The notes beneath the pieces are model-generated. The model worked only from the letters and a program-made list of their open reading frames with translations. It was not told the origin of the DNA and searched no databases. Source: Tyzzerella sp. (GTDB taxonomy: Bacteria > Bacillota > Clostridia > Lachnospirales > Lachnospiraceae). From it: a DNA stretch of 64,000 nucleotides. The stretch is taken from NCBI GenBank assembly GCA_017410145.1, contig JAFQRJ010000010.1, positions 51,374-115,373 on the forward strand. The letters are read 5' to 3'. The translations under genes and the position numbers were made by a program. This document shows, in pieces, positions 38,944 to 52,303 of this stretch. How positions within the stretch are numbered: position 1 is the first letter of the stretch; every line of letters begins with the position of its first letter.

Positions 38944-40749
38944 CTAATCCAAAGACAACAGAACCAGTCCTGTTGCAACCGCATTTCTCGGTCCTTCTTT
39001 GCCACGTATGTTGCCGCGTCCACAGACAATCATATATTTTGCAAATTCCTCCATTAACATTTCTGGAATCTCAAAGTCCTCTGCGGAACCGCCGACCAGA
39101 ACAACGTTCGGTATCTTTTTTAAATCTTTGTCCGGTGCCACTTTCTGAAGGGCACGAATTGCGTTGGTCACAAATACCTTTTGCTTTGCTTCCCGTCTTA
39201 CCTGCACGATTTTCTCCATCGGAATGTCTTCTTCAATTCGAATCAGTCCACTCTCCGACAGCATGACAACCCTGCCGTAAAATCTTGGATCTATGGAATC
39301 CTCTACAAAGGTGATCTGCCCGTTTTCCATACGCATATGGAAGAGACTTTCTACCTTTGCAAGTGGATACTTCTTAATCTGTTCTGCCACATGGCGGTCA
39401 GACAAACCAAGCTCTGTCTGAATCAGCATGGATACCAGTTCCCCGGCTCCGGCTTGATGAGTAATCGCCACTTGACCATCTTTTGAAATGAGAGCTGCAT
39501 CTGTAGAGCCGCCACCCATGTCGAGTATTGCAAGCGGAACAGCCACACCCGGAGTTGTCAGTGCTCCAAGACTTGCCATCACGGCTTCCACGCCGGCCAC
39601 AACTACGTTGACTCCCAAATCTGCTTTCAAACGTTCTGCAATCTTCTGCATTGGAAGCTGCTGCGTCTTCACCATCGCTGCGATACCAACTGCCTTTTCC
39701 AAACAGGTTTCCCCTGCCAATGCTCCTGATATTAACACCGGCGCCATGGTATCTACCGCTAGAATGTCTGTAATATGAACCTCTTCTGTAGTCTCATTCA
39801 CCGTCTTCATGCCGGTTCTGATTTTCGCAAACATATTTCCTACATTCGTATCCGGCTGACCAATGACATCATAGATGGTTCCTGCTTCTGAAACCGCTTC
39901 CATGATTTTCACCGCGCCTTCATCAATATTGATGTTCGCTTCCTTCTCTGCTTTTAAATAAATCTCACCGGCAGGCAACACATTTTCTTTTACATTCCCA
40001 CCCGGTGTTTTCAAAACAACCGCACTTCTCTTTCCAATTAAGCTCTTGGCAATTGGAGTGATCATGCGAGTCTCTTCTGAATTTAATTTTAATAAAGTAG
40101 CAATTCCATATGGATTGGAAAGCATGCGAATGGTCTGTCCCGGCGGTGCAACTTCAATAGCTGCAAGCACTCCTCCCGGAAGTTTGTCAATTCTCGCCAC
40201 CTCATCCACAATCGGAATCTTCTTGGTTAGTCGATTCTCAACCAGCACCGCTTCATCCGCCTGTAAAATCATACCCACCACATCCACCTTTTCAGCAAGA
40301 CGATTGGTAATCTCCGCTACCGCTTCATATGGATATTCTCTTGGAACTGCAATGATATAAGCTTTGCCGGCTTCTGCTTTTCTTTGTTCATCCAATCTCA
40401 GAATCTCTCCAACTGCCTGACCGACACCTGCCGGTGTAGACGGGTTATGTCCGATCATGGACGAATCCGTAATAATTGTTTCTGTTAATGTTTCCATTGC
40501 GGTGTCACCGATAACCGGTGCCGCCTCATTCAATCGTATCAGCGAAAGGTCACTGATTTCTTTTCCTATCTTGCTCATTGCGGCCTTTAGAGCCGATTTA
40601 ATTGCATGAGTATTCGCAACCGTTCCTTTTGTACCGGTTGTAGGGCATGAAGTGCTTGACACAAATGTAAGTTTTTGTGCCTCATCGATTTGACCGATAC
40701 ACACTTCCGTTGTGGAATTCCCTATATCTACTCCTGCAATCAATCTCAA
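38944..40749 (-). CDS. pduG: Diol dehydratase reactivase large subunit
   Basis: 601 residues, an actin/Hsp70-like ATPase (IAGVDIGNSTTEVCIGQID; LAILDMGGGSTDAALI; VVLVGGSAEDFEIPEM). Reactivates suicide-inactivated diol dehydratase. The start is an unusual TTG (40749) overlapping the pduE stop as TTGA, with AGAGG 9 nt upstream: translation is coupled to the small subunit. Confidence 0.95.
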   Translation of the reverse strand: MRLIAGVDIGNSTTEVCIGQIDEAQKLTFVSSTSCPTTGTKGTVANTHAIKSALKAAMSKIGKEISDLSLIRLNEAAPVIGDTAMETLTETIITDSSMIGHNPSTPAGVGQAVGEILRLDEQRKAEAGKAYIIAVPREYPYEAVAEITNRLAEKVDVVGMILQADEAVLVENRLTKKIPIVDEVARIDKLPGGVLAAIEVAPPGQTIRMLSNPYGIATLLKLNSEETRMITPIAKSLIGKRSAVVLKTPGGNVKENVLPAGEIYLKAEKEANINIDEGAVKIMEAVSEAGTIYDVIGQPDTNVGNMFAKIRTGMKTVNETTEEVHITDILAVDTMAPVLISGALAGETCLEKAVGIAAMVKTQQLPMQKIAERLKADLGVNVVVAGVEAVMASLGALTTPGVAVPLAILDMGGGSTDAALISKDGQVAITHQAGAGELVSMLIQTELGLSDRHVAEQIKKYPLAKVESLFHMRMENGQITFVEDSIDPRFYGRVVMLSESGLIRIEEDIPMEKIVQVRREAKQKVFVTNAIRALQKVAPDKDLKKIPNVVLVGGSAEDFEIPEMLMEEFAKYMIVCGRGNIRGKEGPRNAVATGLVLLSLD

Positions 40750-41138
40750 AGCAAAATACCTCTTTTCTCATACACCTCTGCAGCTTCCATTACAAGTCTT
40801 GCACAGTTTTTTGCATTGTATTTCTCAATCAATTCTTGTGCCATCTGAACCAATTCTAATTTGGTGGAACGATTCGGACGAAGTTTGTCATACATTTTAA
40901 GAATCACATCATCCGGTACGTCTACCAATTCAGCAGCACGTTCGAAATTCTTTTCCATCGGGTCATTGCCGGTTTCTTTGGCTACCTGACCTTGAGCTTT
41001 TAACATCTCTTTGGAAATCTTAATATCATCAGAAGAAATGTGACCCTTCATCACTTCATCCAATGTAATCTCTGTTAATTTTTTTCCTGTTTTCGAGCGA
41101 ATTTGCTCTTTTTCTAATTCACCTAACGGATATCTCAT
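40746..41138 (-). CDS. pduE: Propanediol dehydratase small subunit
   Basis: 130 residues, shorter than Salmonella PduE (173), lacking most of its N-terminal extension. GHISSDDIKISKEMLKAQGQVAKETGN and ERAAELVDVPDDVILKMYDKLRPNRST are conserved. Forms the (alpha-beta-gamma)2 dehydratase with PduC and PduD. Confidence 0.95.
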   Translation of the reverse strand: MRYPLGELEKEQIRSKTGKKLTEITLDEVMKGHISSDDIKISKEMLKAQGQVAKETGNDPMEKNFERAAELVDVPDDVILKMYDKLRPNRSTKLELVQMAQELIEKYNAKNCARLVMEAAEVYEKRGILL

Positions 41139-41813
41139 TTATCTGCCCTCCCATTCAATTGCTCCAACTGCCGGGTCAAGCTGCTCTGTTTCCGCAATAT
41201 GCATAAGCGCCGCTTTTACCTGATATCTTGGTCTGGACATTGGGTCGTTGGTACATGGAACCGGTACAACCTGTTCTCCCTTTACATACTTTGCAGCATT
41301 CTTACCAATCTGACGATAGGTCTCTAACGTCATAAGCGGTGCTTGCGGGAATAACTCCAGATTCGAAAGTGGATATAAATCCTTCTGATGAATCACGGTA
41401 GTTCCTTTTGACTGGATCCCAACTCCGATTCCCGAACCGGATAATTTTGCAGCCTCTAATGCCATAAAGCATACATCGGATGTATCCAAAATCTTTACGA
41501 CTCTTGCATTCATTCCTTCTTCCTCAATGCCTGCCTTTACATTGCGAAGCACCTCATCAAGTGGAATGTCACAAATAGTTCTTTTAATCTCTTTCTGGAA
41601 TGCAGCCCCAACACCGATAACAATCTCCTTCGGGTCTGTTCCTTTTTTCGCTCTTGGGTAAGAGGAATAATCAGTTTTTATTTCGTTAATACGATCTTTT
41701 CCTGCTAAAGAAGAAACAGTTGCAGGCTTGTTATCTGTCTTATTGTCTAACTGTCCGATTTGCTCCATGACAGCATCGACAATCTTTTTAATCAATTCTT
41801 CATTCATCTGCAT
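41139..41813 (-). CDS. pduD: Propanediol dehydratase medium subunit
   Basis: 224 residues. Residues 1-20 ([19 protein letters not shown]) match the known PduD encapsulation signal. The rest binds the cobalamin lower face ([51 protein letters not shown]). One nucleotide separates it from pduE. Confidence 0.96.
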
Positions 41814-41825
41814 GTCTTCTTCCTC

Positions 41826-43490
41826 CTAAATGTCTTTCGGGTCAATCAGATGAGGAATCTTCTTGATTTCTTCCCAACGTTTACCTTCGACACGGTATCC
41901 CGTTCCAGGTCCCATATAATCGTTCGGCGTATTCACTCCTGACAACACATGGAAATCTTTATCCAAAATAGCTGCCGTCTGCATGTAATCGCCTACCACT
42001 CTTTGCTTCAGCATATTTAACACGCTCTCTGCAACATCCTGATAACCTGCCTCAGCCAACGCTCTTACCACGTCAACTCCCGTAATTCCTCTCTTCAGAA
42101 CATCTTCTGCAGCCATAAGGTCTGCGGTTACATCTCTTGGAAGTGTATCCTTACTGCCGTGTGCATAAGTTACAGCCTCTACCTGCTCATCTGAAATCGG
42201 CGACAAGCCCAACTGTCTAAACACAGCTTGCACTGCTTTTGTTGCTTTATTTCTTACGCGGATTACTTCCTCTTCCGTCACCGGGCGAAGACCGCCATCT
42301 ACCTGCATGTCTCTCTGCAATACATTATAATCATCAAAATCTTCTGCGTCGAAGTTCGAACCTGCAAACATGTTGTCATAGTTTGGCTCTGCTGCATAAC
42401 CGGAGAAAATAAAATCGGTTCCCGGTAAGAACTGCAACATAGTTCTCGCTGTACGTCTCATGTCAGAGTTAGAGAAACTCTGATCGTTGGAAGATGCACA
42501 TTCCAATCCTAAAAGGGCTGCCACTAGGTTTTCTGCAATAACTTCACGGATACCTCCAGGTACTGCTCCCGGTACACCGATACAACTTACCGAACCATTC
42601 TGGATACCCTGACTACCTGCACCTTTCGTTGCATATAAACATCTACACTCCAAATAGAGCATCGATTTCTTTTCGCTATTTCCCATCAAAACTTCTGAGC
42701 CTGCACCGGATGTAAAACGAACCTTTAATCCTCTAGATGCGTAAGCCGAGTTCAAAAATGCTTTCGAATATGGAGTATCGTCTCCATCAATAAATACCTT
42801 TTCCGTACCATATACAGAAAGTGTCTCTGCGTATGTAGTAAGACCACGGATACCAAGTTCCAACTCTGTAGCTTCTTCTGCCGAACATTGTGTCAGAACT
42901 CCCGGACGTCCAATCTGTGAACCGATTAAGATTGCCATCGCACTAAGCGGCGCATATCTTGCAACACCCATGGTAGTTTCTTCTTCTGCAAATCCACGAA
43001 GAGCACCTTCTGCCGCATCTGCTGCCAACTGAACCGGGTCATCTTTTAAGTTTGTAATATGTGCCTGGTTACCCGGAGTCTTTCTGGCACGCATCTTCTG
43101 CATACCCATCATCAACTCTACAACATTCAGATAGTTCATTACTTCTGCCATGCGAGCCGGTGTAATACCGGAAACAAGTTCCAAAATCTCTTTTCTAGAC
43201 ACGTGTATATCTACAATCATTCTTGCGATATCAAGTGCAGATACAGCCATGGAATTTTCCGTGCGGCTGATATTTATCGCATAGTCCGCAATAAACTGAT
43301 CGATAAAATCAAAATCTTCTCTTTTCTTGCCGTCTAATTCCACAATCTTTCCATTCTGGACTTTCACAGATGGTGTTGGGTCATATGGACTCTTCATCGC
43401 CACAAACCCCATCTCCGGCCATTCGTTAATATAACCATCCAGATTAACCGGACGCTTGTCAAGTATTTCAATACGTTTTGATCTCTTCAT
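41826..43490 (-). CDS. pduC: Adenosylcobalamin-dependent propanediol dehydratase large subunit
   Basis: 554 residues, full length and colinear with PduC/DhaB (RSKRIEILDKRPVNLDGYINEWPEMGFVAMKSPYDP at the start; GLECASSNDQSFSNSDMRRTART near the substrate pocket). Converts 1,2-propanediol to propanal via the adenosyl radical; glycerol may also be used. First gene of the BMC operon, with promoter and repeats upstream at 43540-43643. Confidence 0.97.
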   Translation of the reverse strand: MKRSKRIEILDKRPVNLDGYINEWPEMGFVAMKSPYDPTPSVKVQNGKIVELDGKKREDFDFIDQFIADYAINISRTENSMAVSALDIARMIVDIHVSRKEILELVSGITPARMAEVMNYLNVVELMMGMQKMRARKTPGNQAHITNLKDDPVQLAADAAEGALRGFAEEETTMGVARYAPLSAMAILIGSQIGRPGVLTQCSAEEATELELGIRGLTTYAETLSVYGTEKVFIDGDDTPYSKAFLNSAYASRGLKVRFTSGAGSEVLMGNSEKKSMLYLECRCLYATKGAGSQGIQNGSVSCIGVPGAVPGGIREVIAENLVAALLGLECASSNDQSFSNSDMRRTARTMLQFLPGTDFIFSGYAAEPNYDNMFAGSNFDAEDFDDYNVLQRDMQVDGGLRPVTEEEVIRVRNKATKAVQAVFRQLGLSPISDEQVEAVTYAHGSKDTLPRDVTADLMAAEDVLKRGITGVDVVRALAEAGYQDVAESVLNMLKQRVVGDYMQTAAILDKDFHVLSGVNTPNDYMGPGTGYRVEGKRWEEIKKIPHLIDPKDI

Positions 43491-43539
43491 GTTCTTATAA
43501 CTCCTTTACGGATGTCTACTGACAGTCTTTAACAAAGTT

Positions 43540-43643
43540 ATTCTACCACACAATCACAACAAAATCAACACTTTTATTTTCTATTTTTTGTGGTTTCTAT
43601 TTTGGTTTTATGTGGTTTTTGTGTTGTTTTTGTGTTGATTTTG
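43540..43643 (-). promoter_or_regulatory. BMC operon promoter with tandem 11-bp operator repeats
   Basis: Minus-strand TTGATT (43563-43568), 17-nt spacer, TAGAAT (43540-43545). Five head-to-tail 11-mers on the plus strand fill 43589-43643: TGTGGTTTCTA, TTTTGGTTTTA, TGTGGTTTTTG, TGTTGTTTTTG, TGTTGATTTTG. Two more lie inverted over the promoter (TGTTGATTTTG at 43560-43570 and TTGTGATTGTG at 43549-43559 on the minus strand). Periodicity of one helical turn fits cooperative binding of a DeoR-family protein. Confidence 0.8.
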
Positions 43644-43907
43644 TTTTTTTCTGCATTTTCTCCATTGACAACGCTTAATAAGAACATAGTTTCCAGGAAG
43701 GGTTTACAGAGTGTAGACAACCTTCCGGGCTTATGCCCGGACTTTTCTGCATTTATGCGCTCATAGGGTCTATGGAAATTTTTTGTAGCTCCAGACCCCG
43801 TTTTTAAAGAAATTCACCTTACATTTTAACTGTTTTGGGTCTATAGAAAAAAACTATCTCTTGAGACCCAGAAAAATGAGAAAATAAGGGTCTGGGAACA
43901 ATCTTTT
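43644..43907. other. Gene-free stretch with tandem imperfect hairpins
   Basis: No reading frame. It contains a hairpin CCGGGC/GCCCGG (43727-43742) and two similar imperfect hairpins GGGTCTATGGA/CTCCAGACCC (43766-43798) and GGGTCTATAG/CTAT..GAGACCC (43837-43869), followed by a third partial one from 43888. These look like decayed small transposable-element ends. Confidence 0.45.
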
Positions 43908-43990
43908 TATGTATAGGCCCCAACAATTTCTTTTAACTCTTCAAAACTCTTTAATCCGCTAAGCGCATCATAAGCTGCAACACAAAAAGC
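43908..43990 (-). pseudogene. C-terminal fragment of a PfkB-family carbohydrate kinase, copy 1
   Basis: Minus-strand translation AFCVAAYDALSGLKSFEELKEIVG then GAYT and TAA. It is ~75% identical at DNA level to the C-terminal part of the kinase fragment at 47670. It abuts the stop of the truncated HTH gene without any gap. No start, no kinase core. Confidence 0.8.
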
Positions 43991-44202
43991 TATAAACTTT
44001 GTATCGGTACAATTTGCAACGTATAACCAAGCGGTACCAAAATCCGTAGCAAACTATCAACCTGTGGTGAATGCGTTAATGATTCTATTCTCGCAATGGT
44101 CGGCTGTTTTACATCGCATATTTTTGCTAATTGCATCTGAGTCAATCCTTGCTCTTCTCTTAACTTGAAAAACCTGCCGCACGCACGACTTTCATCGCAC
44201 AT
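43990..44202 (-). pseudogene. C-terminal part of a HigA-like XRE antitoxin
   Basis: 70 codons open. Residues ~14-70 (KLREEQGLTQMQLAKICDVKQPTIARIES...) are an XRE HTH of the HigA type. The first ~12 codons are translated from the hairpin repeat at 44173 and there is no ribosome site, so the true N-terminus was replaced. The missing N-terminal half is seen at 46722-46891. Probably not functional, although a short HTH peptide cannot be excluded. Confidence 0.72.
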
Positions 44203-44210
44203 ACGGCAGG
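44173..44210. repeat. Hairpin repeat H, copy 1
   Basis: CCTGCCG / CGGCAGG outer stem around GTGCGA-TGAAAG-TCGTGC (minus strand, with G-U pairs). On the minus strand TTTTTC follows, so it can terminate hicB. A near-identical copy is at 49298-49333 and half a copy at 48017-48039. Confidence 0.8.
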
Positions 44211-44220
44211 CTTATCTTAT

Positions 44221-44622
44221 TTATTTTTTTGTAGCCTTGACGAGTAAGGCTTCCTGCAGAACCTGCGAAAAATTGATGCTCTGCTTTTCAGCAAACGTAT
44301 TAAGCCATGCTGGAATAGTAACATTTTTTCGAACAGCTTTTTCGCCATATCTTTCTGCATATTCATCCATATTTAATAGTATCATGTTTACTTGACCACT
44401 ATCTTTCGGCTGTACTTCTTGGTATTTCGATGCTCGTGGAACAGGATTCCCCTCTTCTAATTCATCAAGCACCCATCCGCTTGCGGCATCTACTGCCATC
44501 TCCAATGCTTCAGCTAAATCTTTTCCACCGGTAACACACCCCGGCAAATCCGGAAATTCCACCACATAACCTCCGCTTCCATCTGAATATGGATAAAATA
44601 TTGCTGGATAAATCAATTTCAT
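44221..44622 (-). CDS. hicB: HicB-family antitoxin (orphan)
   Basis: 133 residues. The N-terminal partial RNase H-like fold (YPAIFYPYSDGSGGYVVEFPDLPGCVTGGKDLAEALEMA) and the C-terminal DNA-binding helix region (KNVTIPAWLNTFAEKQSINFSQVLQEAL) are typical. A HicA toxin (about 60 residues, dsRNA-binding fold) should lie adjacent but none is found on either side: upstream there is a terminator, downstream the hairpin repeat. Confidence 0.9.
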   Translation of the reverse strand: MKLIYPAIFYPYSDGSGGYVVEFPDLPGCVTGGKDLAEALEMAVDAASGWVLDELEEGNPVPRASKYQEVQPKDSGQVNMILLNMDEYAERYGEKAVRKNVTIPAWLNTFAEKQSINFSQVLQEALLVKATKK

Positions 44623-44644
44623 ATCTTTCCTCCATTCTAATTAA

Positions 44645-44673
44645 GAAAAAAGGGTACGGTGTTAACCATACCC
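44645..44673 (-). terminator. Terminator after the XRE/radical SAM operon
   Basis: Minus strand GGGTATGGT / ACCGTACCC followed by TTTTTTC. Closes the operon 46550-44721 before hicB. Confidence 0.85.
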
Positions 44674-44720
44674 TACTTTGACCAGCCAAAGCGACCTCGT
44701 CGGTCAAGTTATCCTTTCTC

Positions 44721-45092
44721 TTACTTGGCCTCGTCGGCCAAAAAACACTTCTTCGAAGTGCCCTTTTTCAATAATAGTATAGTTTTTTTATAATATAGTA
44801 TAATTCTTTTCTCTATTTCATGTTTTACATCCACTGTTATAGCACAGATATCCCTCTGCTTCTTTGGTACTATCAACTCTTCCATGTGTATTCCAAACAA
44901 AATACTAAGTGCGTACAAATGATCCACTGTCGGGAGCATCATTCCTTTAAACCATCGGTAAATCGGTTGTGGGCATGATAGTTGTAGATATTCTTGAATA
45001 TCTTTCACCGTATATCCAGATTTTTTCATATAATTTTTTAATATTTGCCCCGTTTGAATAGTATCTATATTGGTATAAGCCTTTCTTCTCAA
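44721..45092 (-). CDS. XRE-family HTH regulator
   Basis: 123 residues. HTH at ~15-70: QILKNYMKKSGYTVKDIQEYLQLSCPQPIYRWFKGMMLPTVDHLYALSILFGIHMEELI. The C-terminal half is lysine-rich and unrecognised. It starts 4 nt after the radical SAM gene ends, so it is cotranscribed and probably regulates that operon. Confidence 0.82.
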   Translation of the reverse strand: MRRKAYTNIDTIQTGQILKNYMKKSGYTVKDIQEYLQLSCPQPIYRWFKGMMLPTVDHLYALSILFGIHMEELIVPKKQRDICAITVDVKHEIEKRIILYYKKTILLLKKGTSKKCFLADEAK

Positions 45093-45096
45093 AGAA

Positions 45097-46161
45097 TCAC
45101 CCTCTTTTTTTATTTTTACATAATACTACTTCTGGTCGTATTGGACAGCCTCCCATACATTTTTGCCTTTGCGCACAAGAAGGACATGCTTCCTTAAAGC
45201 AGTTGCGGAACTTTTCAAACGTTTCACTGTTCCAAGCCTCTTGTATCGAATATGTTTTCAAATCAACTGCCCATTTTAATTCTTGATTATCAAAACTGCA
45301 AGGCAGCATCTTCATGTCAGGCGTAATATATGCTGACCACCTCGCCCCTTCACAAGTATCCAAACTCTCTATGTTTATCATACCCGGCTGATTAATCAAC
45401 GCAGGAACGGTGCAAGAATCAAATCCAATCTTATACTTGTGAGCGTCTTCGCCAATGATTCGAAAAAATTCGTGTGTCTCTGAATCTTCAATAGAAAGCA
45501 TATTTTCTCTTATTCCAAGACCTACAGGTTTATGTAAAAGAAAAATAATAGCATTGATTCCTTTTGGAAAACTTTCTTTTTGTAATCTTTCTATAGCCTC
45601 TTTAATCGTATGTTTTCCTAATACATAATGTATATTAGTTTTAACACCATTGTTTAATAATAGTTGAATAGCATTTAATGTATATTCACTTCTATACCAA
45701 CTAACCGCAACAGCTCCACAATATTTCTTACACAATTGCGCAATTTCCTCTGTCATTCCCAAACCCGAAGTAGTAAAATTAGGAACGATATCTGAATCTC
45801 TGCAAAGTTTTAAAATCTCTGCAAAGTTTTCATGTTGGTCAGGATCACCGCAACCACCCAAAGCAAACTGAAATACTTTTCCTTCACACTGTTTCACCAA
45901 ATTACGAAAATCATCCAACTTCATGTTAGGTGCATCTGAATGCAGTCCATCTTGATAACATTGAACCCCTGCCTTTAGACATAAACCACTCTTCCCATGT
46001 TTGCAATGTCCCATAATTCCAATATCTAAAAGTTCAGGAAAAGAGGACATAAAAGGGTCTTTTCCCGTATCTTTTCCGTTTTTTATGACCCCAGTCCGTA
46101 CATATTCACCAGTAATTTCGTTGAAAAAAGACAAAAAATCCTTTTCTTTTCGCACTCTCAT
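45097..46161 (-). CDS. Radical SAM/SPASM-type enzyme with unusual cysteine spacing
   Basis: 354 residues. Cys53, Cys61 and Cys68 (GHCKHGKSGLCLKAGVQCYQ) take the place of the standard CX3CX2C motif, giving CX7CX6C. FALGGCGDPDQHENF corresponds to the SAM-binding GGEP motif. The C-terminus has SPASM-like auxiliary-cluster cysteines (LDTCEGAR, MLPCSFD, CPSCAQRQKCMGGCP). SPASM enzymes usually modify peptides or proteins. The gene lies 14 nt after the SSSSS-motif protein, which is the obvious candidate substrate or partner. Confidence 0.85.
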   Translation of the reverse strand: MRVRKEKDFLSFFNEITGEYVRTGVIKNGKDTGKDPFMSSFPELLDIGIMGHCKHGKSGLCLKAGVQCYQDGLHSDAPNMKLDDFRNLVKQCEGKVFQFALGGCGDPDQHENFAEILKLCRDSDIVPNFTTSGLGMTEEIAQLCKKYCGAVAVSWYRSEYTLNAIQLLLNNGVKTNIHYVLGKHTIKEAIERLQKESFPKGINAIIFLLHKPVGLGIRENMLSIEDSETHEFFRIIGEDAHKYKIGFDSCTVPALINQPGMINIESLDTCEGARWSAYITPDMKMLPCSFDNQELKWAVDLKTYSIQEAWNSETFEKFRNCFKEACPSCAQRQKCMGGCPIRPEVVLCKNKKRG

Positions 46162-46175
46162 ATCTGCCCGTTCTC

Positions 46176-46550
46176 CTAATATGACAAATCTCCGTCAATA
46201 ATTACAAAAGACTCTTTCTCTGTTTCTTCTAATTTCTTCCATAATCTTTCGAATAATCGTGCATAATTCCAATCAGCATCTTCAAAAGATATCCACTCAC
46301 TATAAATTGTTTTTCCTTCTTTCAATGCTTTACGAATTTCTTCTAGTTCATCGTCATTAATATACACACCATCAAGCCATTCCTCTATATCCTTTTCAGT
46401 GCTTTGTGGCGTCAACACCTTTCTACCTAAGAATTCATTTTCCACATACTCAACTATAACCTGCCTCTGTAGCTCCGATAGACTGTCCTTTCTAGCCAGA
46501 ATAAAACTGCTACTACTTGAATTAGTTACAAAATCCGTTCTAATTTTCAT
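46176..46550 (-). CDS. Small acidic protein with N-terminal FVTNSSSSSF motif
   Basis: 124 residues from ATG 46550 (GGAGG 8 nt upstream; the ATG at 46565 has no site). It opens MKIRTDFVTNSSSSSFIL: an N-terminal block with five serines at residues 10-14. The rest is acidic, helical and unknown (EEWLDGVYINDDELEEIRKALKEGKTIYSEW). I recall this N-terminal motif from many otherwise unrelated hypothetical proteins of Firmicutes and phages. Together with a radical SAM/SPASM gene it suggests a peptide-modification or recognition tag. Function unknown. Confidence 0.85.
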   Translation of the reverse strand: MKIRTDFVTNSSSSSFILARKDSLSELQRQVIVEYVENEFLGRKVLTPQSTEKDIEEWLDGVYINDDELEEIRKALKEGKTIYSEWISFEDADWNYARLFERLWKKLEETEKESFVIIDGDLSY

Positions 46551-46721
46551 GTCTTTATCCTCCACACATATATTTATTATCTACAAACAATCGTTGCATT
46601 AAAAGTATATTATAATGTCAACCTCTTTGTCATTGGACTGTTAATCCAAAAATGAAAATCCTTCTCCGAACGAGTAAAAATTTTAAGTGTGGATAACTAC
46701 CCTCAGAAATAAAAGCACTCT

Positions 46722-46891
46722 CTAATAGCCGGCTGTTTTACATCGCATATTTTTGCTAATTATATCTGAGTCAATCCTTGCCCTTCTCTGATTTGCACCA
46801 TCGTTTTAATCAGATTCTTCTCTAATGCAATCACCTTTTCATCATCTTCTGTAAGTTTTAATTCTTCCCTTAAAGTTTTCCATGTGGTCAT
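46722..46891 (-). pseudogene. N-terminal part of a HigA-like antitoxin with premature stop
   Basis: Starts at ATG 46891 behind GAGAGGAG: TTWKTLREELKLTEDDEKVIALEKN, then QIREGQGLTQI, an in-frame TAA, and LAKICDVKQPAIRE. It matches the 43990 fragment in the overlap (GLTQ.QLAKICDVKQP). The frame is lost after 46722. Clearly broken. Confidence 0.85.
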
Positions 46892-46918
46892 TTTACTTAC
46901 TCCTCTCCCTATAAACTT

Positions 46919-46987
46919 TCAACTTCTTTTTGCCTGTTCAATTTCCCTCTTAGGTGCTTTTTTCGGCGTATATTCTTTTGTTCTTTC
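46919..46987 (-). pseudogene. C-terminal remnant of a HigB-like toxin
   Basis: ERTKEYTPKKAPKREIEQAKRS and stop, immediately upstream of the broken higA. This resembles the conserved end of phage-derived Gp49-like HigB toxins (..KTPKREIE.A). Nothing of the catalytic core remains. The remaining parts of 46566-47137 contain no gene. Confidence 0.65.
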
Positions 46988-47090
46988 TATATTTTATATC
47001 AATTTGTTATAATATCAATGAATAAATACAATCATATGCCCACCTTTTGTGGATAACTCAGAAACTTTGTTGATAGTGTTGATAACCCAA

Positions 47091-47123
47091 AAATAGACAG
47101 CCACTGACGTGTCTGCCTATCCC
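47091..47123 (-). terminator. Terminator after the 47138 gene
   Basis: Minus strand ATAGGCAGA / CTGTCTAT stem followed by TTTTTGGG. Confidence 0.65.
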
Positions 47124-47137
47124 TAAAATCCTTTTGA

Positions 47138-47428
47138 TTAACTAGGACGTCGTATTTCCAAAAACTCGATTCGCCCATCCTGCAAATCAACATTACAGCT
47201 AGCTGAATATGGCCAGTCCTCTCCAGAGGTTAGGATTAAGCTATCCACTTTAGAAATGTCGCACTCCGGCGCAGGTTCATCGTTAACTCCAACAAAACAA
47301 TAAACGATACCATCATGTTCTCCATATGCTGAAGTCCCGTTATCCGCATGTTTCTTACAAAAATCATATCCAATTGCATCAATACATGCCCTAATTCCTT
47401 TTTTCTTGGCTTCAATTACTGTCAACAT
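47138..47428 (-). CDS. Hypothetical protein
   Basis: 96 residues, not recognised. LTVIEAKKKGIRACIDAIGYDFCKKHADNGTSAYGEHDGIVYCFVGVNDEP... suggests a small mixed alpha/beta domain with three cysteines; no signal peptide or membrane segment. The ATG has GGAGAGGAGGATAAGAC upstream and the gene has its own terminator, so it is likely real. It stands alone among gene remnants. Confidence 0.7.
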   Translation of the reverse strand: MLTVIEAKKKGIRACIDAIGYDFCKKHADNGTSAYGEHDGIVYCFVGVNDEPAPECDISKVDSLILTSGEDWPYSASCNVDLQDGRIEFLEIRRPS

Positions 47429-47622
47429 GTCTTATCCTCCTCTCCTATAAATCATGAAATAAATTTGCAGTGAATTCATATTCGTTTCCCGTAATACAAG
47501 AAACAATAATACTTGCGCTTTATTACTCTCTTTTTGGCACCACTCTCTTATCACGACTATATTATATATTAAATACATTCTCTTTTCAACTTATTTCTGC
47601 CTTGAATTCAACCCAAATTAAC

Positions 47623-47668
47623 AACGGGGTGCAATCCATCACCTGAACTGCACCTCGTTCTTTTTTTA
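47623..47668 (+). terminator. Terminator-like hairpin, plus orientation
   Basis: AACGGGGTGCA / TGCACCTCGTT stem followed on the plus strand by CTTTTTTT. No plus-strand gene precedes it. On the minus strand it lies just behind the kinase remnant but without a U-tract. Confidence 0.6.
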
Positions 47669-47669
47669 T

Positions 47670-47896
47670 CTAATTCTTCTCCCAACCGTTTTGAATCTTT
47701 TCTTTCAACTCATCAAAACTTTTCAGGCCACTAAGGGCATCATATGCCGCAACACAAGATGCTCCCGTAGCAGTTGCCAACTGCAAGCATTCGCTACTAG
47801 AATGCCCTGTGACAATGGCCTGAAGAAAGGCTGCAATACTGGTGTCGCCTGCACCGGTTCCGGAAAGAACCCTCTCCGGCTTATAACTCTTCTCAA
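47670..47896 (-). pseudogene. C-terminal fragment of a PfkB-family carbohydrate kinase, copy 2
   Basis: About 75 residues: KSYKPERVLSGTGAGDTSIAAFLQAI holds the PfkB signature (GTGAGD, with the catalytic Asp), then SSECLQLATATGASCVAAYDALSGLKSFDELKEKI. The N-terminal ~240 residues with the sugar site are missing and replaced by an unrelated coiled-coil fragment. A shorter second copy lies at 43908. Confidence 0.88.
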
Positions 47897-48012
47897 TTCT
47901 CATCATCTGCACGTTGCTTCTCATCGTCTGCACGTTTGCGTTCTCGCTCTGTATTTACGCGTTCTTCATCGCGAATTCGTTTTGCTTCGTAATCTAGTAT
48001 CTTTCCACCCAT
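47893..48012 (-). pseudogene. Short coiled-coil ORF fragment joined to the kinase remnant
   Basis: 39 codons from ATG 48012: GGKILDYEAKRIRDEERVNTERERKRADDEKQRADDEN. Arg/Glu-rich tails of this kind occur at the ends of Uma2/Rpn-like nuclease proteins. It overlaps the kinase fragment by 4 nt in another frame and has no ribosome site. Likely the leftover end of a larger gene. Confidence 0.5.
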
Positions 48013-48016
48013 AATC

Positions 48017-48039
48017 TTTCCAATCGCACATACGGCAGG
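48017..48039. repeat. Hairpin repeat H, half copy
   Basis: ATCGCACATACGGCAGG matches the right half of the repeats at 44173 and 49298; the left half is absent. Confidence 0.7.
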
Positions 48040-48121
48040 TTGTTCTAACTTAACTATATTCGCTTTTCATTAGCCTCAACTTCCGCCGTGGGAATTCCCT
48101 TGACGATCTTTTCAATACTTT

Positions 48122-49078
48122 CTATGATAAGCGTTTTACAACTTTTTCAATCGTCCCTTCGCTCTCTTCCAGCATCTCTGCAATTTCAGGGATTGTACAG
48201 CCCTTCTGCAATTTTTTCTGTACTTGCTCCATTAACTTTCTATCTTCGCCCTGCTCGATTCCATCATTATAAAGATCATCTAACGCTTTGCACATATTTA
48301 CACCTTCTTTCTCTTCCACACGTGTCACTGTTTGATTTAATAACGTTTTCGATTGTAGAAACTCTCCTATCACACGATGTACGCCGCCCGTAACACATTG
48401 GAAATAATCTCTATGTTCATCCATATAGTTTATGAGTGCATCCTTATCGTTTCGGCACTTCATCATACCCAAAATTTCTTTCAAATCTGACTGAAAACAA
48501 TCGACACTTTGGATGTTATTCACGTCAAACAAATTCAGTTTGTAGTTCGGAATGTATTGTTGCAACACTTCTTCGTTAAACAAAGAATGATTGTGAAACA
48601 TTCCATACAAATCTGTACTACCGTCCCATGCATCCAGGCCATAATAGAAAACGGCACTGATTACAGGGACAAGCTTGTCGTCCTTCCTAAAGTGCGACAA
48701 ATACTCTGCTCCCGACAAAGACTGGTGTACATCTTCTCTATTTGATTCCCATATCTCCTTTGCCTGACCGAGATAACTGAGACTGTCATACAACATTCCA
48801 CGAACCGGCATCGCGTAATGAACCTTTGATTGGGTCTCACACGCCAGTAACGTCAGATAAGTCTCATTTCTCCATTTCATAGTAATATCTCGATATCGTT
48901 GGATCGGAACAACCTGTCTGTTTCCATCTTCCACTATAATATCCGTTTCGCCCTTGGCTTCTTCCAAATCCTCCGGCATAATAATTTGGCGTCCCTGAAA
49001 AAAGTTGCCATTAAAATAATCAGCAAACCGCACCTTATCTCTCAAAAACTCATTCACAGCTGTGTGTCCTTTGCTCAT
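48122..49078 (-). CDS. Rpn-family recombination-promoting nuclease/putative transposase
   Basis: 318 residues. NEFLRDKVRFADYFNGNFFQGRQIIMPEDLEE and ETQSKVHYAMPVRGMLYDSLSYLGQ are the PD-(D/E)XK fold of Rpn (YhgA-like) proteins; the C-terminus CTIPEIAEMLEESEGTIEKVVKRL is the usual helical tail. Rpn proteins raise RecA-independent recombination and travel in multigene families; it may have helped shuffle the fragments around it. Full length. Confidence 0.88.
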   Translation of the reverse strand: MSKGHTAVNEFLRDKVRFADYFNGNFFQGRQIIMPEDLEEAKGETDIIVEDGNRQVVPIQRYRDITMKWRNETYLTLLACETQSKVHYAMPVRGMLYDSLSYLGQAKEIWESNREDVHQSLSGAEYLSHFRKDDKLVPVISAVFYYGLDAWDGSTDLYGMFHNHSLFNEEVLQQYIPNYKLNLFDVNNIQSVDCFQSDLKEILGMMKCRNDKDALINYMDEHRDYFQCVTGGVHRVIGEFLQSKTLLNQTVTRVEEKEGVNMCKALDDLYNDGIEQGEDRKLMEQVQKKLQKGCTIPEIAEMLEESEGTIEKVVKRLS

Positions 49079-49344
49079 AAGTACCTCTTTCCGAGAAGTA
49101 TTCTATAATCCTGTCATTAGAAACTTCTCTGCTTTATTCATTTATTCAAGCGTTGAAAATTTCTAAGATAACTACATCTGTAGTTAAGGATTTTAGAATG
49201 GCTGTGCACCATAAGATATTAGAAACGATTATCAACTTGTTGAATTGTTTATAGCATACCATATATACGTTATTCTTGCAAGGACTTTTTGAGAAATTCT
49301 GCCGCATGCACGACTTTCATCGCACATACGGCAGGTATCTTCTC
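49079..49344. other. Intergenic region with hairpin repeat H
   Basis: No gene is visible. The only structure is the hairpin repeat at 49298-49333, placed behind the 49345 HTH gene as a possible terminator. Confidence 0.6.
49298..49333. repeat. Hairpin repeat H, copy 2
   Basis: CTGCCG / CGGCAG outer stem around GCACGACTTTCATCGCAC (plus strand). It differs from copy 1 by a single transition in the shared core (CATGC versus CACGC). Confidence 0.8.
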
Positions 49345-49989
49345 TCACCCTAACAAATCCTCAACATCACATCCAAGCACCTTTGCAAGACTCAACACCA
49401 CATGCACCTGTGCTTTGTTAATATCATTCTGCCCTTGTTCATAGAGTTGAATCATTCTAAGAGTAACACCTGAAGCATCCGATAACTGCTGCTGCGTAAA
49501 GCCCCTTGCTTTACGAATTTGGTGAAGTTTGGATTTTTGTTCCTGTTTATTTCGATTCAAAATTTCATTTGCCGACTCAACAAATTTACTCTCATCTGCT
49601 TCATGAAGAATATACATAGAAAACACAGTGGATAACGGGAGACCGCCCTTCACAATATCTTCAAATCGTTTACCGGTAAACCATTGATAGTAAGCGAGTA
49701 TCCAACCACCCCAATATTCTCTGCCTTTAAACTCTATGTGAGCAGGCACAATCTTCTCATATTTGATGTTGGTGGCACTCAGTACTGCTTCCGTCAATTC
49801 AAAACCGGACATACCCGTAACATATTTGGGATTTCCCTTTTCAAATTTAGAAGCAATACCAGAGGATATGAACCAATCAAAAAATTGATCTGGGTCATAT
49901 CCCAAATCACAAACAGCATACTCTACCATATCACCGAGATTGTTCATTGCATCATCCAAGTATAATTCGCTGTAAGCGTTCATCATCAT
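49345..49989 (-). CDS. HTH-containing antitoxin partner of a DUF3990 protein
   Basis: 214 residues. N-terminal ~140 residues (LGDMVEYAVCDLGYDPDQFFDWFISSGIASKFEKGNPKYVTGMSGFELTEAV...EYWGGWILAYYQWFTG) form a domain typical of DUF3990 partners. The C-terminal XRE HTH (LHQIRKARGFTQQQLSDASGVTLRMIQLYEQG) should bind the palindromes at 50674-50724. It overlaps the toxin gene by 38 nt. Confidence 0.82.
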   Translation of the reverse strand: MMMNAYSELYLDDAMNNLGDMVEYAVCDLGYDPDQFFDWFISSGIASKFEKGNPKYVTGMSGFELTEAVLSATNIKYEKIVPAHIEFKGREYWGGWILAYYQWFTGKRFEDIVKGGLPLSTVFSMYILHEADESKFVESANEILNRNKQEQKSKLHQIRKARGFTQQQLSDASGVTLRMIQLYEQGQNDINKAQVHVVLSLAKVLGCDVEDLLG

Positions 49990-50650
49990 TTTTCCACCCT
50001 TCCCTCATAATATCGAGAATATATTTTTCAGTTAACAGAGAACCTCTGCTTTTTTCTTTTCTAAATTCATCTCTGGCAGTCGTGTCACGGGCAAGTTTTT
50101 TCGGATAATATACTTCTTTTGGTGCTCGAAAAGCTTCCTCAAATTGAAAAGCCTCTATGCCCTTTTCACTCATTGCTACAACCTGCTCACCAAGTTTTCC
50201 GAGAACCATTGCCTTTTCCAACTGTGATACAGATATTGTATTATTCAAAAAGGCAGTTGCGAAGGAGAAATACGAGTCGTCTGCTCGATAGCCTTTGATT
50301 ATATCATATTGTCTATAATCTACTGCAAAATTCTCAGAAATATAACTTTTTGCCTGTTTCGCGATATCTCCACCTATTCGAAATTTGCGATTTTCAAGTA
50401 GGACAAAAAGCCAATTAAGGATATTATAGTTCCCATTTGTTAAAGAAAGAACAGAAAGGGCAGACATATCCAATGTGTACTTATTTGCATAGCCGTCTGT
50501 TTCGGTAGAACAAGCCCATTCTTTTGCAAGTTCGATAGTTTCGGTGCAATAAAAACCAAGACCATAATCGTTATTAGGATTGCCTAACCCAAACACTGGT
50601 TTTTCAATGACCTTGGACGAACCATGATATACTGTTATCTTATTCTCCAT
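49952..50650 (-). CDS. DUF3990 protein, predicted ADP-ribosyltransferase-like toxin
   Basis: 232 residues. ITVYHGSSKVIEKP and NNDYGLGFYCTETIELAKEWA resemble the NAD-binding region of ADP-ribosyltransferase folds found in DUF3990. Later: YRADDSYFSFATAFLNNTIS and LGKLGEQVVAMSEKGIEAF. It is first in a two-gene operon with an HTH protein and has an autoregulatory-looking promoter, consistent with a toxin-antitoxin pair. Activity is inferred from fold and context. Confidence 0.8.
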   Translation of the reverse strand: MENKITVYHGSSKVIEKPVFGLGNPNNDYGLGFYCTETIELAKEWACSTETDGYANKYTLDMSALSVLSLTNGNYNILNWLFVLLENRKFRIGGDIAKQAKSYISENFAVDYRQYDIIKGYRADDSYFSFATAFLNNTISVSQLEKAMVLGKLGEQVVAMSEKGIEAFQFEEAFRAPKEVYYPKKLARDTTARDEFRKEKSRGSLLTEKYILDIMREGWKNDDERLQRIILG

Positions 50651-50673
50651 AGCATTCCCTCCTTTTATATTGT

Positions 50674-50734
50674 ATCGTTATACCGATAGATTTATTCTTT
50701 TCTGCATTATATCGTTTGAACGATAGTTTGTCAA
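50674..50734 (-). promoter_or_regulatory. Consensus promoter with paired palindromic operators (DUF3990 TA)
   Basis: Minus strand TTGACA (50729-50734), 17 nt, TATAAT (50706-50711): perfect SigA consensus. ATCGTTTGAACGAT, a perfect 6+6 palindrome, fills the spacer (50711-50724). A second, imperfect site ATCGTTATACCGAT lies 37 bp downstream (50674-50687). This is the expected layout for repression by the HTH antitoxin. Confidence 0.85.
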
Positions 50735-50781
50735 TACCTCTGCACTGTTTCCTACATTTTTGTGGTGAACTATAATCAGGA

Positions 50782-50823
50782 CTACCGGCTTAGCCGGTAG
50801 TTTGCTCTGCGGCTATAAGCCGC
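50782..50823. other. Pair of perfect hairpins, possible IS200/IS605-like end
   Basis: CTACCGGC-TTA-GCCGGTAG (50782-50800) and GCGGCT-ATA-AGCCGC (50809-50823), 8 nt apart, in a gene-free stretch with no U-tracts. Short subterminal palindromes in a row are typical of IS200/IS605 ends; no transposase is present. Confidence 0.4.
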
Positions 50824-50885
50824 TGTCCCCTGCCTGCCTCTAAAGTGGCTCTGAATAGTTCTCCTCCCACACTACTTGCATATGC

Positions 50886-50938
50886 AAACCTAACGGTTAT
50901 TGGTTAGATTATGCAAGATTATTTTGTATACGAACAAT
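50886..50938. repeat. Nested palindromic element, copy R3 (right half)
   Basis: GGTTAGA (50902-50908), exactly 20 nt, then TACGAACAA (50929-50937): identical arm sequences and spacing to the right half of the reverse-complemented R1. The inner left arm is degenerate and the outer left arm absent. Confidence 0.75.
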
Positions 50939-51006
50939 CGCAGTACTTGAAGCTAAAGCTATCTGGGGACGCACCTGCATAGTAGGTGTTTATTTTCTCT
51001 GTCGAT

Positions 51007-51035
51007 ACAAAAAGCTCCGGCAAAACTGCCGGAGC
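51007..51035 (-). terminator. Terminator after rhaA
   Basis: GCTCCGGCA / TGCCGGAGC with a 4-nt loop, followed on the minus strand by TTTTTG. Confidence 0.92.
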
Positions 51036-51052
51036 CCTCTTTATCTCACCTA

Positions 51053-52303
51053 CTATACTCTCTTCAAGAGTACTTCATTTTCATATTTTTCAATCTCATC
51101 ATAGTAGTTGTCTGCTGCAACACCGCATTGTCTACAGTATTCAGCCCATACATCACCGATTGGAAGCATCTTGCAGTCTTCCATTGCAACCATCTTACGT
51201 GAGAATTGGTTCGTATCTTGTAATTCTTTTAAGTAAGCACTTGGAGTACAAAGTGCATTTAATAGTGCTTTTTGCATACTTCTAAATCCAGTTACCCATG
51301 CAGAGATACGGTTGATTGATGCATCAAAGAAGTCTAATGCGATATCTACGCGATCAACTGCATCACAGCGAACGATTTCCTGTGCAATTTCTTTTGTTTC
51401 ATCATCTAATACTACTACATGGTCTGAATCCCAACGGATTCCACGTGTTACGTGAAGTGCCACTTCCGGGAAGAAGCAAAGTAATGCAGGAATCTTGTCT
51501 GATACTACTTCTGTTGGATGATAGTGTCCATTATCCATAAGTGGTAAGCATTTATCTTTGTTTGCTGCTGCATAGCTTAATGTAAATTCAGCTGATCCTG
51601 CTGTAAATGCTTCTACACCGATACCGAATACCTTGGATTCCACACATGGTTTTACTTTTGTAAAATCATATGGTTCTGAAAGGATTGCATCGATAGATTC
51701 TTTATAACGCATTCTTGGTCCCATACGGTCTGCCGGAACATCCTTAAAGCCATCACCTGTCCAGATATTCATAACACATGGGAAGCCTGTTTCTTCAGCA
51801 AAATATGTAGCGATGCGGATACAAGCTTTTCCGTGTTCAATCCAGAACTTTCTTGTTTCTTCATCCGGGCTTGAAAGTGTCAAACCATCTTTTACCTTTG
51901 GATGTGAGAAGAAGGTTGGGTTAAAGTCAAGTCCCATTCCTCTTTCTTTTGCAAAATCAACCCATTTTTGGAAATGCTTTGGCTCTAACGCGTCACGGTC
52001 TGCAAATTCACCTTCTTCGAAAATTGCATAGCAAGCATGTACGTTGATTTTCTTAGCACCTGGCATTAAGCTCATTGCTTTATCCATATCTGCCAATAAT
52101 TCTTCCGGTGTTCTTGCTTTTCCAGGATAGTTACCTGTTGTCTGAATACCACCTGTAAGTCCTCCATCATGGTCAAAACCGATAACATCATCGCCTTGCC
52201 AGCAGTGTAATGATACAGGGATTTCTTTACATTTTGCAATTGCTGCATCTGTATCTACGCCATATTTTGCGTAAATCTCTTTTGCCGATTCATATCTTGT
52301 CAT
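51053..52303 (-). CDS. rhaA: L-rhamnose isomerase
   Basis: 416 residues, full length. Interconverts L-rhamnose and L-rhamnulose. Family sequence: IPVSLHCWQGDDVIGFDHDGGLTGGIQTTGNYPGKARTPEEL and LPLMDNGHYHPTEVVSDKI (metal/substrate site), WDSDHVVVLDDE. AAAAAGGAGAATGAAAC precedes the ATG. Downstream of rhaB in the same transcription unit; product feeds the aldolase of the BMC locus. Confidence 0.97.
   Translation of the reverse strand: MTRYESAKEIYAKYGVDTDAAIAKCKEIPVSLHCWQGDDVIGFDHDGGLTGGIQTTGNYPGKARTPEELLADMDKAMSLMPGAKKINVHACYAIFEEGEFADRDALEPKHFQKWVDFAKERGMGLDFNPTFFSHPKVKDGLTLSSPDEETRKFWIEHGKACIRIATYFAEETGFPCVMNIWTGDGFKDVPADRMGPRMRYKESIDAILSEPYDFTKVKPCVESKVFGIGVEAFTAGSAEFTLSYAAANKDKCLPLMDNGHYHPTEVVSDKIPALLCFFPEVALHVTRGIRWDSDHVVVLDDETKEIAQEIVRCDAVDRVDIALDFFDASINRISAWVTGFRSMQKALLNALCTPSAYLKELQDTNQFSRKMVAMEDCKMLPIGDVWAEYCRQCGVAADNYYDEIEKYENEVLLKRV

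Follow-up and report, generated by a model that had tools for sequence, protein, structure and literature searches.

A recurrent N-terminal tag on unrelated acidic proteins and its companion radical SAM/SPASM enzyme point to a probable protein-modification system in bacteria and phages

Several radical SAM enzymes offer points of comparison for the locus described here. The SPASM enzymes SuiB and SkfB act on short, leader-bearing peptides, and SkfB forms crosslinks. The substrate motif of anSME is C/S-x-P-x-R, which sits inside one homologous family of sulfatases. Viperins are radical SAM enzymes of antiviral defence that act on nucleotides and are not known to carry SPASM. According to a passage in PMC5682303, anSME is a SPASM enzyme that turns a cysteine or serine of a protein into formylglycine, and a passage in PMC7159879 describes vWA-MoxR FtsH ternary conflict systems that combine a radical SAM enzyme with a peptide effector. 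We set beside these a 16-residue N-terminus (…DFVTNSSSSSF) that is probably a portable tag, with a radical SAM/SPASM enzyme as its dedicated modifying enzyme. Comparative analysis points to the two as an undescribed system of protein modification with a partial link to antiviral defence; no description of the pair was found in the open-access literature (few subscription journals, no preprints).

In the window, the whole 64,000-nucleotide stretch of Tyzzerella sp. DNA that was analysed, a tag protein gene, a radical SAM/SPASM enzyme gene and an XRE gene lie closely packed on the minus strand, with the following features:

46176..46550, minus strand: tag protein gene with acidic body, 124 aa, ATG at 46550; the product starts MKIRTDFVTNSSSSSF
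46503..46550, minus strand: N-terminal tag, residues 1-16, MKIRTDFVTNSSSSSF; shared by 40 body clusters
46512..46523, minus strand: codons of the N10-S11-S12-S13 core, the proposed modification or recognition site; most conserved positions
45097..46161, minus strand: radical SAM/SPASM enzyme, 354 aa, by Pfam and family profile
45958..46005, minus strand: codons of the radical-SAM cluster motif C53-X7-C61-X6-C68, cysteine spacing read from the sequence
44721..45092, minus strand: XRE-type HTH gene, TTG start, 123 aa, HTH_3
44651..44674, minus strand: terminator-like hairpin behind the XRE gene, 10 pairs plus T-run

A sequence-only reading of this DNA had described three tightly packed genes with a terminator of their own, and this layout was borne out, with gaps of 14 nt between the tag gene and the enzyme gene and 4 nt between the latter and the XRE gene. 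The hairpin is weak evidence on its own, terminator-like sites numbering 5 in the region against 2.1 in shuffles. The XRE gene, whose product matches HTH_3 at 24.5 bits (cut-off 23), is probably co-transcribed with the other two. The tag protein (MKIRTDFVTNSSSSSFIL) contains no cysteine anywhere, which speaks against a thioether within it. At E up to 1 it matched nothing in Pfam, and its one NCBIfam match was at chance level; the tag profile used below finds it at E 8.6e-14 by construction, as the sequence itself is inside the profile. An in-frame GTG five codons 5' of the ATG is a possible alternative start, and valine as residue 8 in 203 of 206 tag proteins lends mild support to the ATG, the start giving that match having been tried first. 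Elsewhere in the window, a gene for a HicB-like antitoxin and a small HTH gene (43990-44622) lie directly behind the terminator of the XRE gene. Positions 49345-50650 hold a possible two-gene module, in which one gene encodes an XRE-like protein that weakly matches a defence model (PDC-M42B, 1.7e-7) and the other a 232-aa protein starting MENKITVYHGSS. The genes at 38944-43490 presumably resemble those for diol or glycerol dehydratase and its reactivase.

The cluster cysteines of the window enzyme stand in the order GHC-KHGKSGL-C-LKAGVQ-CYQ (C53, C61 and C68), and its match to the Pfam SPASM family (PF13186) reached 27.1 bits, above the cut-off of 21.5, confirming the CX7CX6C motif and the SPASM-type C terminus that had been proposed. 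Scores were below the cut-off for Pfam Radical_SAM (20.7 against 29.5 bits) and just below it for TIGR04085 (26.5 against 27), and the enzyme falls in no named NCBIfam SPASM family (PqqE, MftC, NirJ2, W maturase and others; best 37.8 bits against a cut-off of 380). Its 'GGCGDP' lies inside a conserved GG-G-P-H stretch of the enzyme family, which we take to be the SAM-binding GGE-type motif. Judged by the CX3CX2C motif of its relatives and by profile matches to solved radical SAM enzymes, the window enzyme is a member of this superfamily. Eight solved sequences match the enzyme profile, led by 5v1q (4.6e-15), which we take to be SuiB, and SkfB (6efn, 1.4e-12), followed by PqqE (9e-7) and anSME (4k36-4k39, about 5e-6); the lipid enzyme 7tol is among the weak matches. 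The best four are peptide or protein modifiers, in keeping with the earlier suggestion that links SPASM enzymes to peptide or protein modification.

The noncanonical cysteine spacing noted at the outset holds for the window enzyme and is not a rule of its family. Read by pattern, 164 sequences gave CX3CX2C in 106, CX7CX6C in 40, CX7CX2C in 6, CX5CX3C in 4, CX6CX6C in 3 and CX7CX3C and CX5CX6C in 1 each, with 3 unread. By eye, L181, L192 and L193 also have CX3CX2C, which corrects the counts to 109 for CX3CX2C and 39 for CX7CX6C; the CX7CX6C first assigned to L192, a row of the viral clade, was a pattern error. For a quick tree, sequences shorter than 300 aa (L135 included) and near-copies were left out (164 to 160 to 117). 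Of the 117 sequences, 37 fell in a canonical clade that is mostly cellular (SH-aLRT 97) and 38 in a clade of viral sequences only (SH-aLRT 100), canonical after the correction of L192; a further 40 make up the window's clade, in which the spacing is widened and varies (SH-aLRT 97). The T4-like CX7CX2C enzyme and L202 sit on long branches, and their placement is unsure. CX7CX2C is reported for the B12 enzymes PoyB and PoyC in a passage of PMC5682303.

The tag recurs on unrelated proteins, as the sequence-only reading had suggested. BLASTP on residues 23 onward sorted 206 distinct tag proteins into 40 body clusters (the set covers the loci fetched up to a given stage, without the noise matches L105-L129). 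Comparison by hhalign joined 10 of the 780 cluster pairs at above 50% probability, merging the 40 clusters to 30 and speaking against a single family for all tag bodies; the cluster of the window protein and a large tag cluster of other phyla matched at 85.5%. Half of the clusters are single sequences, and remote homology among the bodies is possible. Representative proteins are 73-500 aa long (median 132.5). Over the first 18 residues they average 69% identity between clusters, and body identity across clusters is 24.0%, against 24.4% for shuffled partners (200 random pairs).

Within the tag, residue 16 is F or Y, and variation is seen at residues 14 (S, T, E, A, C, V) and 15 (S, N, V, C and others). 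The invariance of N10, S11 and S13 is no evidence, as the search pattern required them; residue 12 was always S in the pattern set, though S or T was allowed. A later profile match at a contig edge, L254, has Gly for Ser12 (VTNSGSSSF). The virus L202, bearer of the most distant enzyme relative fetched, carries four diverged yet recognisable tags (FVTNSSSYV, FITNSSTEA, YVTNSSTLT and FITNSSTTV), three with T at 13. These substitutions argue against S12 or S13 as a strict target; as judged from conservation, a target of modification would most likely lie within N10-S13. The serine codons at 11-13 mix AGY and TCN freely, so that the peptide is what is conserved, and conservation of the tag as DNA or RNA was ruled out.

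All 40 representative bodies are net negative, most of them strongly so. Their median is -0.12 charges per residue, compared with -0.014 in a set of 999 other ORFs (90-300 aa) from the loci, spurious ORFs included. None falls clearly in a Pfam family, there being four single weak matches (best 0.0009). Acidic bodies that are unrelated in sequence recall DNA-mimic proteins. The one constant feature of the enzyme's partners is the tag, acidity apart, which makes the tag as substrate the economical reading.

The tag could instead be a docking site alone, as is a RiPP leader, with the enzyme modifying residues in the bodies; the nearest solved relatives, 5v1q and SkfB, act on leader-bearing peptides. 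We consider this unlikely, however: the bodies are acidic proteins of 73-500 aa outside any clear Pfam family, their shuffle-level identity between clusters leaves no common target residue visible, and the conserved residues sit in the tag itself. With a leader of this kind, each cluster could possibly have a body-specific target.

We turn to the linkage of tag and enzyme. The first relatives were on plasmids of Agrobacterium, Rhodobacter and Rhizobium. Their enzymes, 36-38% identical to the window enzyme and with CX3CX2C spacing, come after a protein that starts MKIK[LM]DFVSNSSSTSF and is 25-29% identical to the window tag protein over its whole length. From a scan of genome contigs with five plasmid-type enzymes, the best 80 of 116 relatives were kept. 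By title, these best 80 were mostly Bacillota, Pseudomonadota (several 'Deltaproteobacteria') and Bacteroidetes; cyanobacteria, Nitrospirae, planctomycetes, Spirochaetia, Sulfurimonas/Sulfuricurvum and a bin with the label Micrarchaeota contributed one or two loci apiece. A same-strand tag gene was present in the fetched stretch of 80 of the 83 cellular loci (the best 80 of 116 and three plasmids), the nearest one upstream of the enzyme gene in 67 and downstream in 13. As for the remaining three, the enzyme gene of L061 and L086 sits near the end of a contig, with no tag elsewhere in their bins, and the genome of L076 has tags on another contig. An initial figure of 23 of 84 loci without a tag came from too narrow a pattern that missed the variants VTNSSSTNF and VTNSSSE[VIN]F. 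A second cellular layout (L021, L023-L030) runs from a 230-340 aa protein through the enzyme to a tag protein of 470-530 aa with [VI]TNSSSE[VIN]F.

Co-occurrence of tag and enzyme, on which the sequence-only reading had staked its proposal, was clear in genome samples as well. The same samples were searched with a 24-column tag profile (A4) and an enzyme profile (A3). Among 245 Clostridia, the enzyme was found in 5 at E up to 1e-20. The tag search, run at a loose E up to 1, gave matches in 121 of the 245; the same five scored 8.6e-14 to 2.8e-7, the best of the other 240 scored 0.0028, and the cut was set in this gap afterwards, leaving 5 genomes with both and 240 with neither. In Alphaproteobacteria, at a tag cut-off of 0.001, the same 2 of 337 genomes carried both, one of them the seed, and 335 carried neither. 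The 373 genomes of the window's order included 16 with the enzyme and 14 with the tag (13 with both, 356 with neither). Three had the enzyme only: G884, a 61%-complete bin, and G665 and G856, with weak matches (124 and 83 bits) that perhaps belong to other families. One had the tag only (G932, 78% complete, on a contig of 4 kb). The window's own genome, an assembly 67.8% complete, contains a single enzyme and a single confident tag.

Since the samples are not disjoint (G000 belongs to two), the distinct genomes with both number 19. Part of these positives was bound to appear, since the profiles hold sequences of sampled genomes (at least G000, G141, G788 and G868); the informative part is that a tag without the enzyme was seen once, which the contents of A3 and A4 do not affect. 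In a sensitivity check on 21 genomes selected because they have a known tag, A4 recovered all 21, with E-values no worse than 8.8e-10. Co-occurrence in the sampled genomes is thus almost exact; alone, it fits modification and mere binding alike.

The pair is also found in viruses. In a collection of 50,697 phage records, 174 had relatives of the enzyme of phage Matisse, and relatives of its tag proteins gp113 and gp118 were found in 174 and 175. The three sets have a near-identical organism breakdown (RB16/RB43-type and Slopekvirus) by name, not record by record. Two enzyme-positive records with weaker matches, one Vibrio and one other, fall outside the RB43-type group, and further weaker enzyme matches came from Microcystis and Thermus phages. 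The two tagged genes of Matisse lie 20-24 kb from the enzyme gene. They were found with a weak pattern that gave 15 matches against 11 for a reversed control; both tags are N-terminal (MKIRSGFVSNSSSSSF), and the tag profile, which contains both, finds two tags in each of five T4-like phages. In RB43/Slopek-type phages (L003, L204-L208) the enzyme thus stands in trans to two tagged proteins, at 67302-67772 and 71157-71672 in phage KT001918. The phage protein gp113 resembles PHROG 132, a head-tail adaptor (7.7e-10).

The enzyme is carried by 74 viral contigs, which with the 5 T4-like phages make 79 viral loci. Tags were present in the fetched stretch of 55 of the 79 (108 tags in all), and one viral enzyme gene precedes up to six different tagged proteins. 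The other 24 include the 5 T4-like phages, whose tags are 20-24 kb off, L130, in which the upstream gene is cut by the contig end, and L202 with its four diverged tags; no tag was seen on 17 enzyme-bearing viral contigs (fragments of 5-58 kb, 13 over 8 kb). The virus L162 has three further tags about 75 kb away. The enzyme gene is near a gene taken by eye for a tail sheath gene in 46 of the 74 viral loci, and in IMG/VR loci L141-L199 the enzyme and tag genes stand between convergent genes resembling those for tail sheath and tail tube. Five of the 74 (L169, L175, L200, L201 and L203) have instead the large STAND-like protein of cellular operons and are likely prophages or misassigned contigs. 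A DNA-level search of E. coli gave no match to the Vibrio enzyme gene, and the viral tag protein of L141 used as query found no phage record.

In 54 of 84 relatives, a gene for a homologous large protein (580-1077 aa) lies upstream on the same strand, and 50 of those 54 also have a small protein (80-149 aa). Two large proteins that were examined match Avs2 STAND NTPase models (1.1e-20 for L004 and 8e-21 for L031). A metallo-beta-lactamase-fold gene precedes the large protein in 7 loci (L064, L070, L071, L078, L080, L082 and L083), and its product in L064 matches LmuA and Avs1a. Five of seven hand-picked flanking genes, from six loci, match defence models (two in L037 and one each in L039, L034 and L004); those of L010 and L002 gave no defence-model match. 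At the N terminus of the L004 large protein is a SMEK domain, which a passage in PMC10810196 describes as a nuclease domain of short-Argonaute systems. These neighbours suggest an antiviral function for the tag-enzyme operons in which they occur. Most viral loci, like the window, have no large STAND-like protein nearby. By BLAST, neither the large protein (three tried) nor the small protein is found in window 40001-52000, and among the ORFs of the 74 viral loci the small protein is found only in 3 defence-type ones. The window tag protein and enzyme match no PADLOC model. The XRE regulator, which had been counted as part of the system, has homologues in 3 of the 84 relatives' stretches, at varying places, and was rejected as a third component.

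It could also be that the tag is not a substrate at all and is a motif for binding or assembly, such as a beta hairpin that docks to the enzyme or to some third partner, the enzyme acting elsewhere. By eye the tag reads as strand-loop-strand, and the conserved small protein in the operon of 50 of the 84 relatives could be the real substrate there. Tag and enzyme nevertheless persist together where the small protein is absent (window 40001-52000 and most viral loci), and we think this arrangement quite improbable. That the two merely travel in mobile defence or phage modules, with no functional contact, would fit their presence in phages, on plasmids and in some defence-like neighbourhoods, but is hardly credible given that unlinked copies co-occur in T4-like phages (20-24 kb), L162 (about 75 kb) and L076 (another contig) and that the three genome samples hold 1 tag-alone genome against 19 distinct genomes with both.

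We favour the tag as the substrate of the enzyme. The enzyme would bind any tagged protein by its N terminus, in cis and in trans alike, and its 5'-deoxyadenosyl radical would take a hydrogen from the [FY]-[VI]-[ST]-N-S-S-S core, most likely at a serine, to leave an oxidised or cross-linked residue. Because anSME oxidises a protein serine and SkfB forms crosslinks, both chemistries are conceivable for the tag and neither is preferred. The modified tag may then enable a common step, be it assembly, stability or recognition by a shared partner. The tagged proteins of phages are small and often come in cassettes, and in many bacteria a large STAND-NTPase-like protein of antiviral type is followed by one tagged protein, a small partner and the enzyme. 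These cassettes and NTPase operons suggest that the mark plays a role in phage-host conflict or virion biology. Directly observed are the conserved tag at its fixed place, its spread over unrelated bodies, its close co-occurrence with this enzyme family and the gene order; the tag as substrate, the core as target, hydrogen abstraction and the role of the mark are inferences. The interpretation first given for this locus, taken as a whole, is partly supported.

A wider proposal, which we regard as possible and a little short of probable, is that a general portable tag is turned by a dedicated enzyme into a new modified terminus, used by large phages on entire cassettes of unrelated acidic proteins and in bacterial STAND-NTPase antiviral operons. 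Tag and mark would be a language shared by phage and host, and the cluster spacing would have been remodelled several times while the partner stayed. About 30 groups of uncharacterised bacterial and phage proteins are tied to one enzyme family, and a direct prediction follows on the chemistry of the first 16 residues of tagged proteins. If a radical SAM enzyme does act on the tag that so many non-homologous proteins have in common, this would amount to a new mode of protein modification. STAND-type antiviral operons gain a candidate component, the RB43-group coliphages provide a testable in-trans enzyme-substrate pair, and the remodelling of the cluster motif within a single family is relevant to the tolerance of radical SAM enzymes for spacing changes.

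Among described systems, SuiB and SkfB share with the locus a radical SAM domain with SPASM-type C terminus, a gene adjoining a substrate-like gene and the best profile matches. In contrast to them, one tag is shared here by many acidic proteins that are longer and unrelated to each other, some of them encoded far from the enzyme, and cluster spacing varies within the tag-linked enzyme family. The tag proteins, at 73-500 aa, also differ from RiPP precursors, which are short leader-core peptides. The likeness to Avs/AVAST STAND systems lies in the two large proteins that match Avs2 models (L004 and L031) and the LmuA/Avs1a-like gene, whereas the window and most viral loci have no large protein nearby. 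Radical SAM chemistry is the likeness to pVip. The L049 enzyme, of canonical spacing, matches two pVip models (3e-12 and 8e-12) over residues 40-166, with 44.5 bits over residues 40-154, which covers the radical SAM core only, and the window enzyme matches no pVip model. In the passage of PMC7159879 on vWA-MoxR FtsH systems, the idea is likewise that a radical SAM enzyme modifies a partner encoded by a neighbouring gene within a conflict system; the core genes differ, and that passage mentions no tag. Although the tag consensus contains no C/S-x-P-x-R or other CxPxR-type motif and the profile similarity is weak (4.5e-6), anSME is, by analogy, the closest functional counterpart of the tag-linked enzyme.
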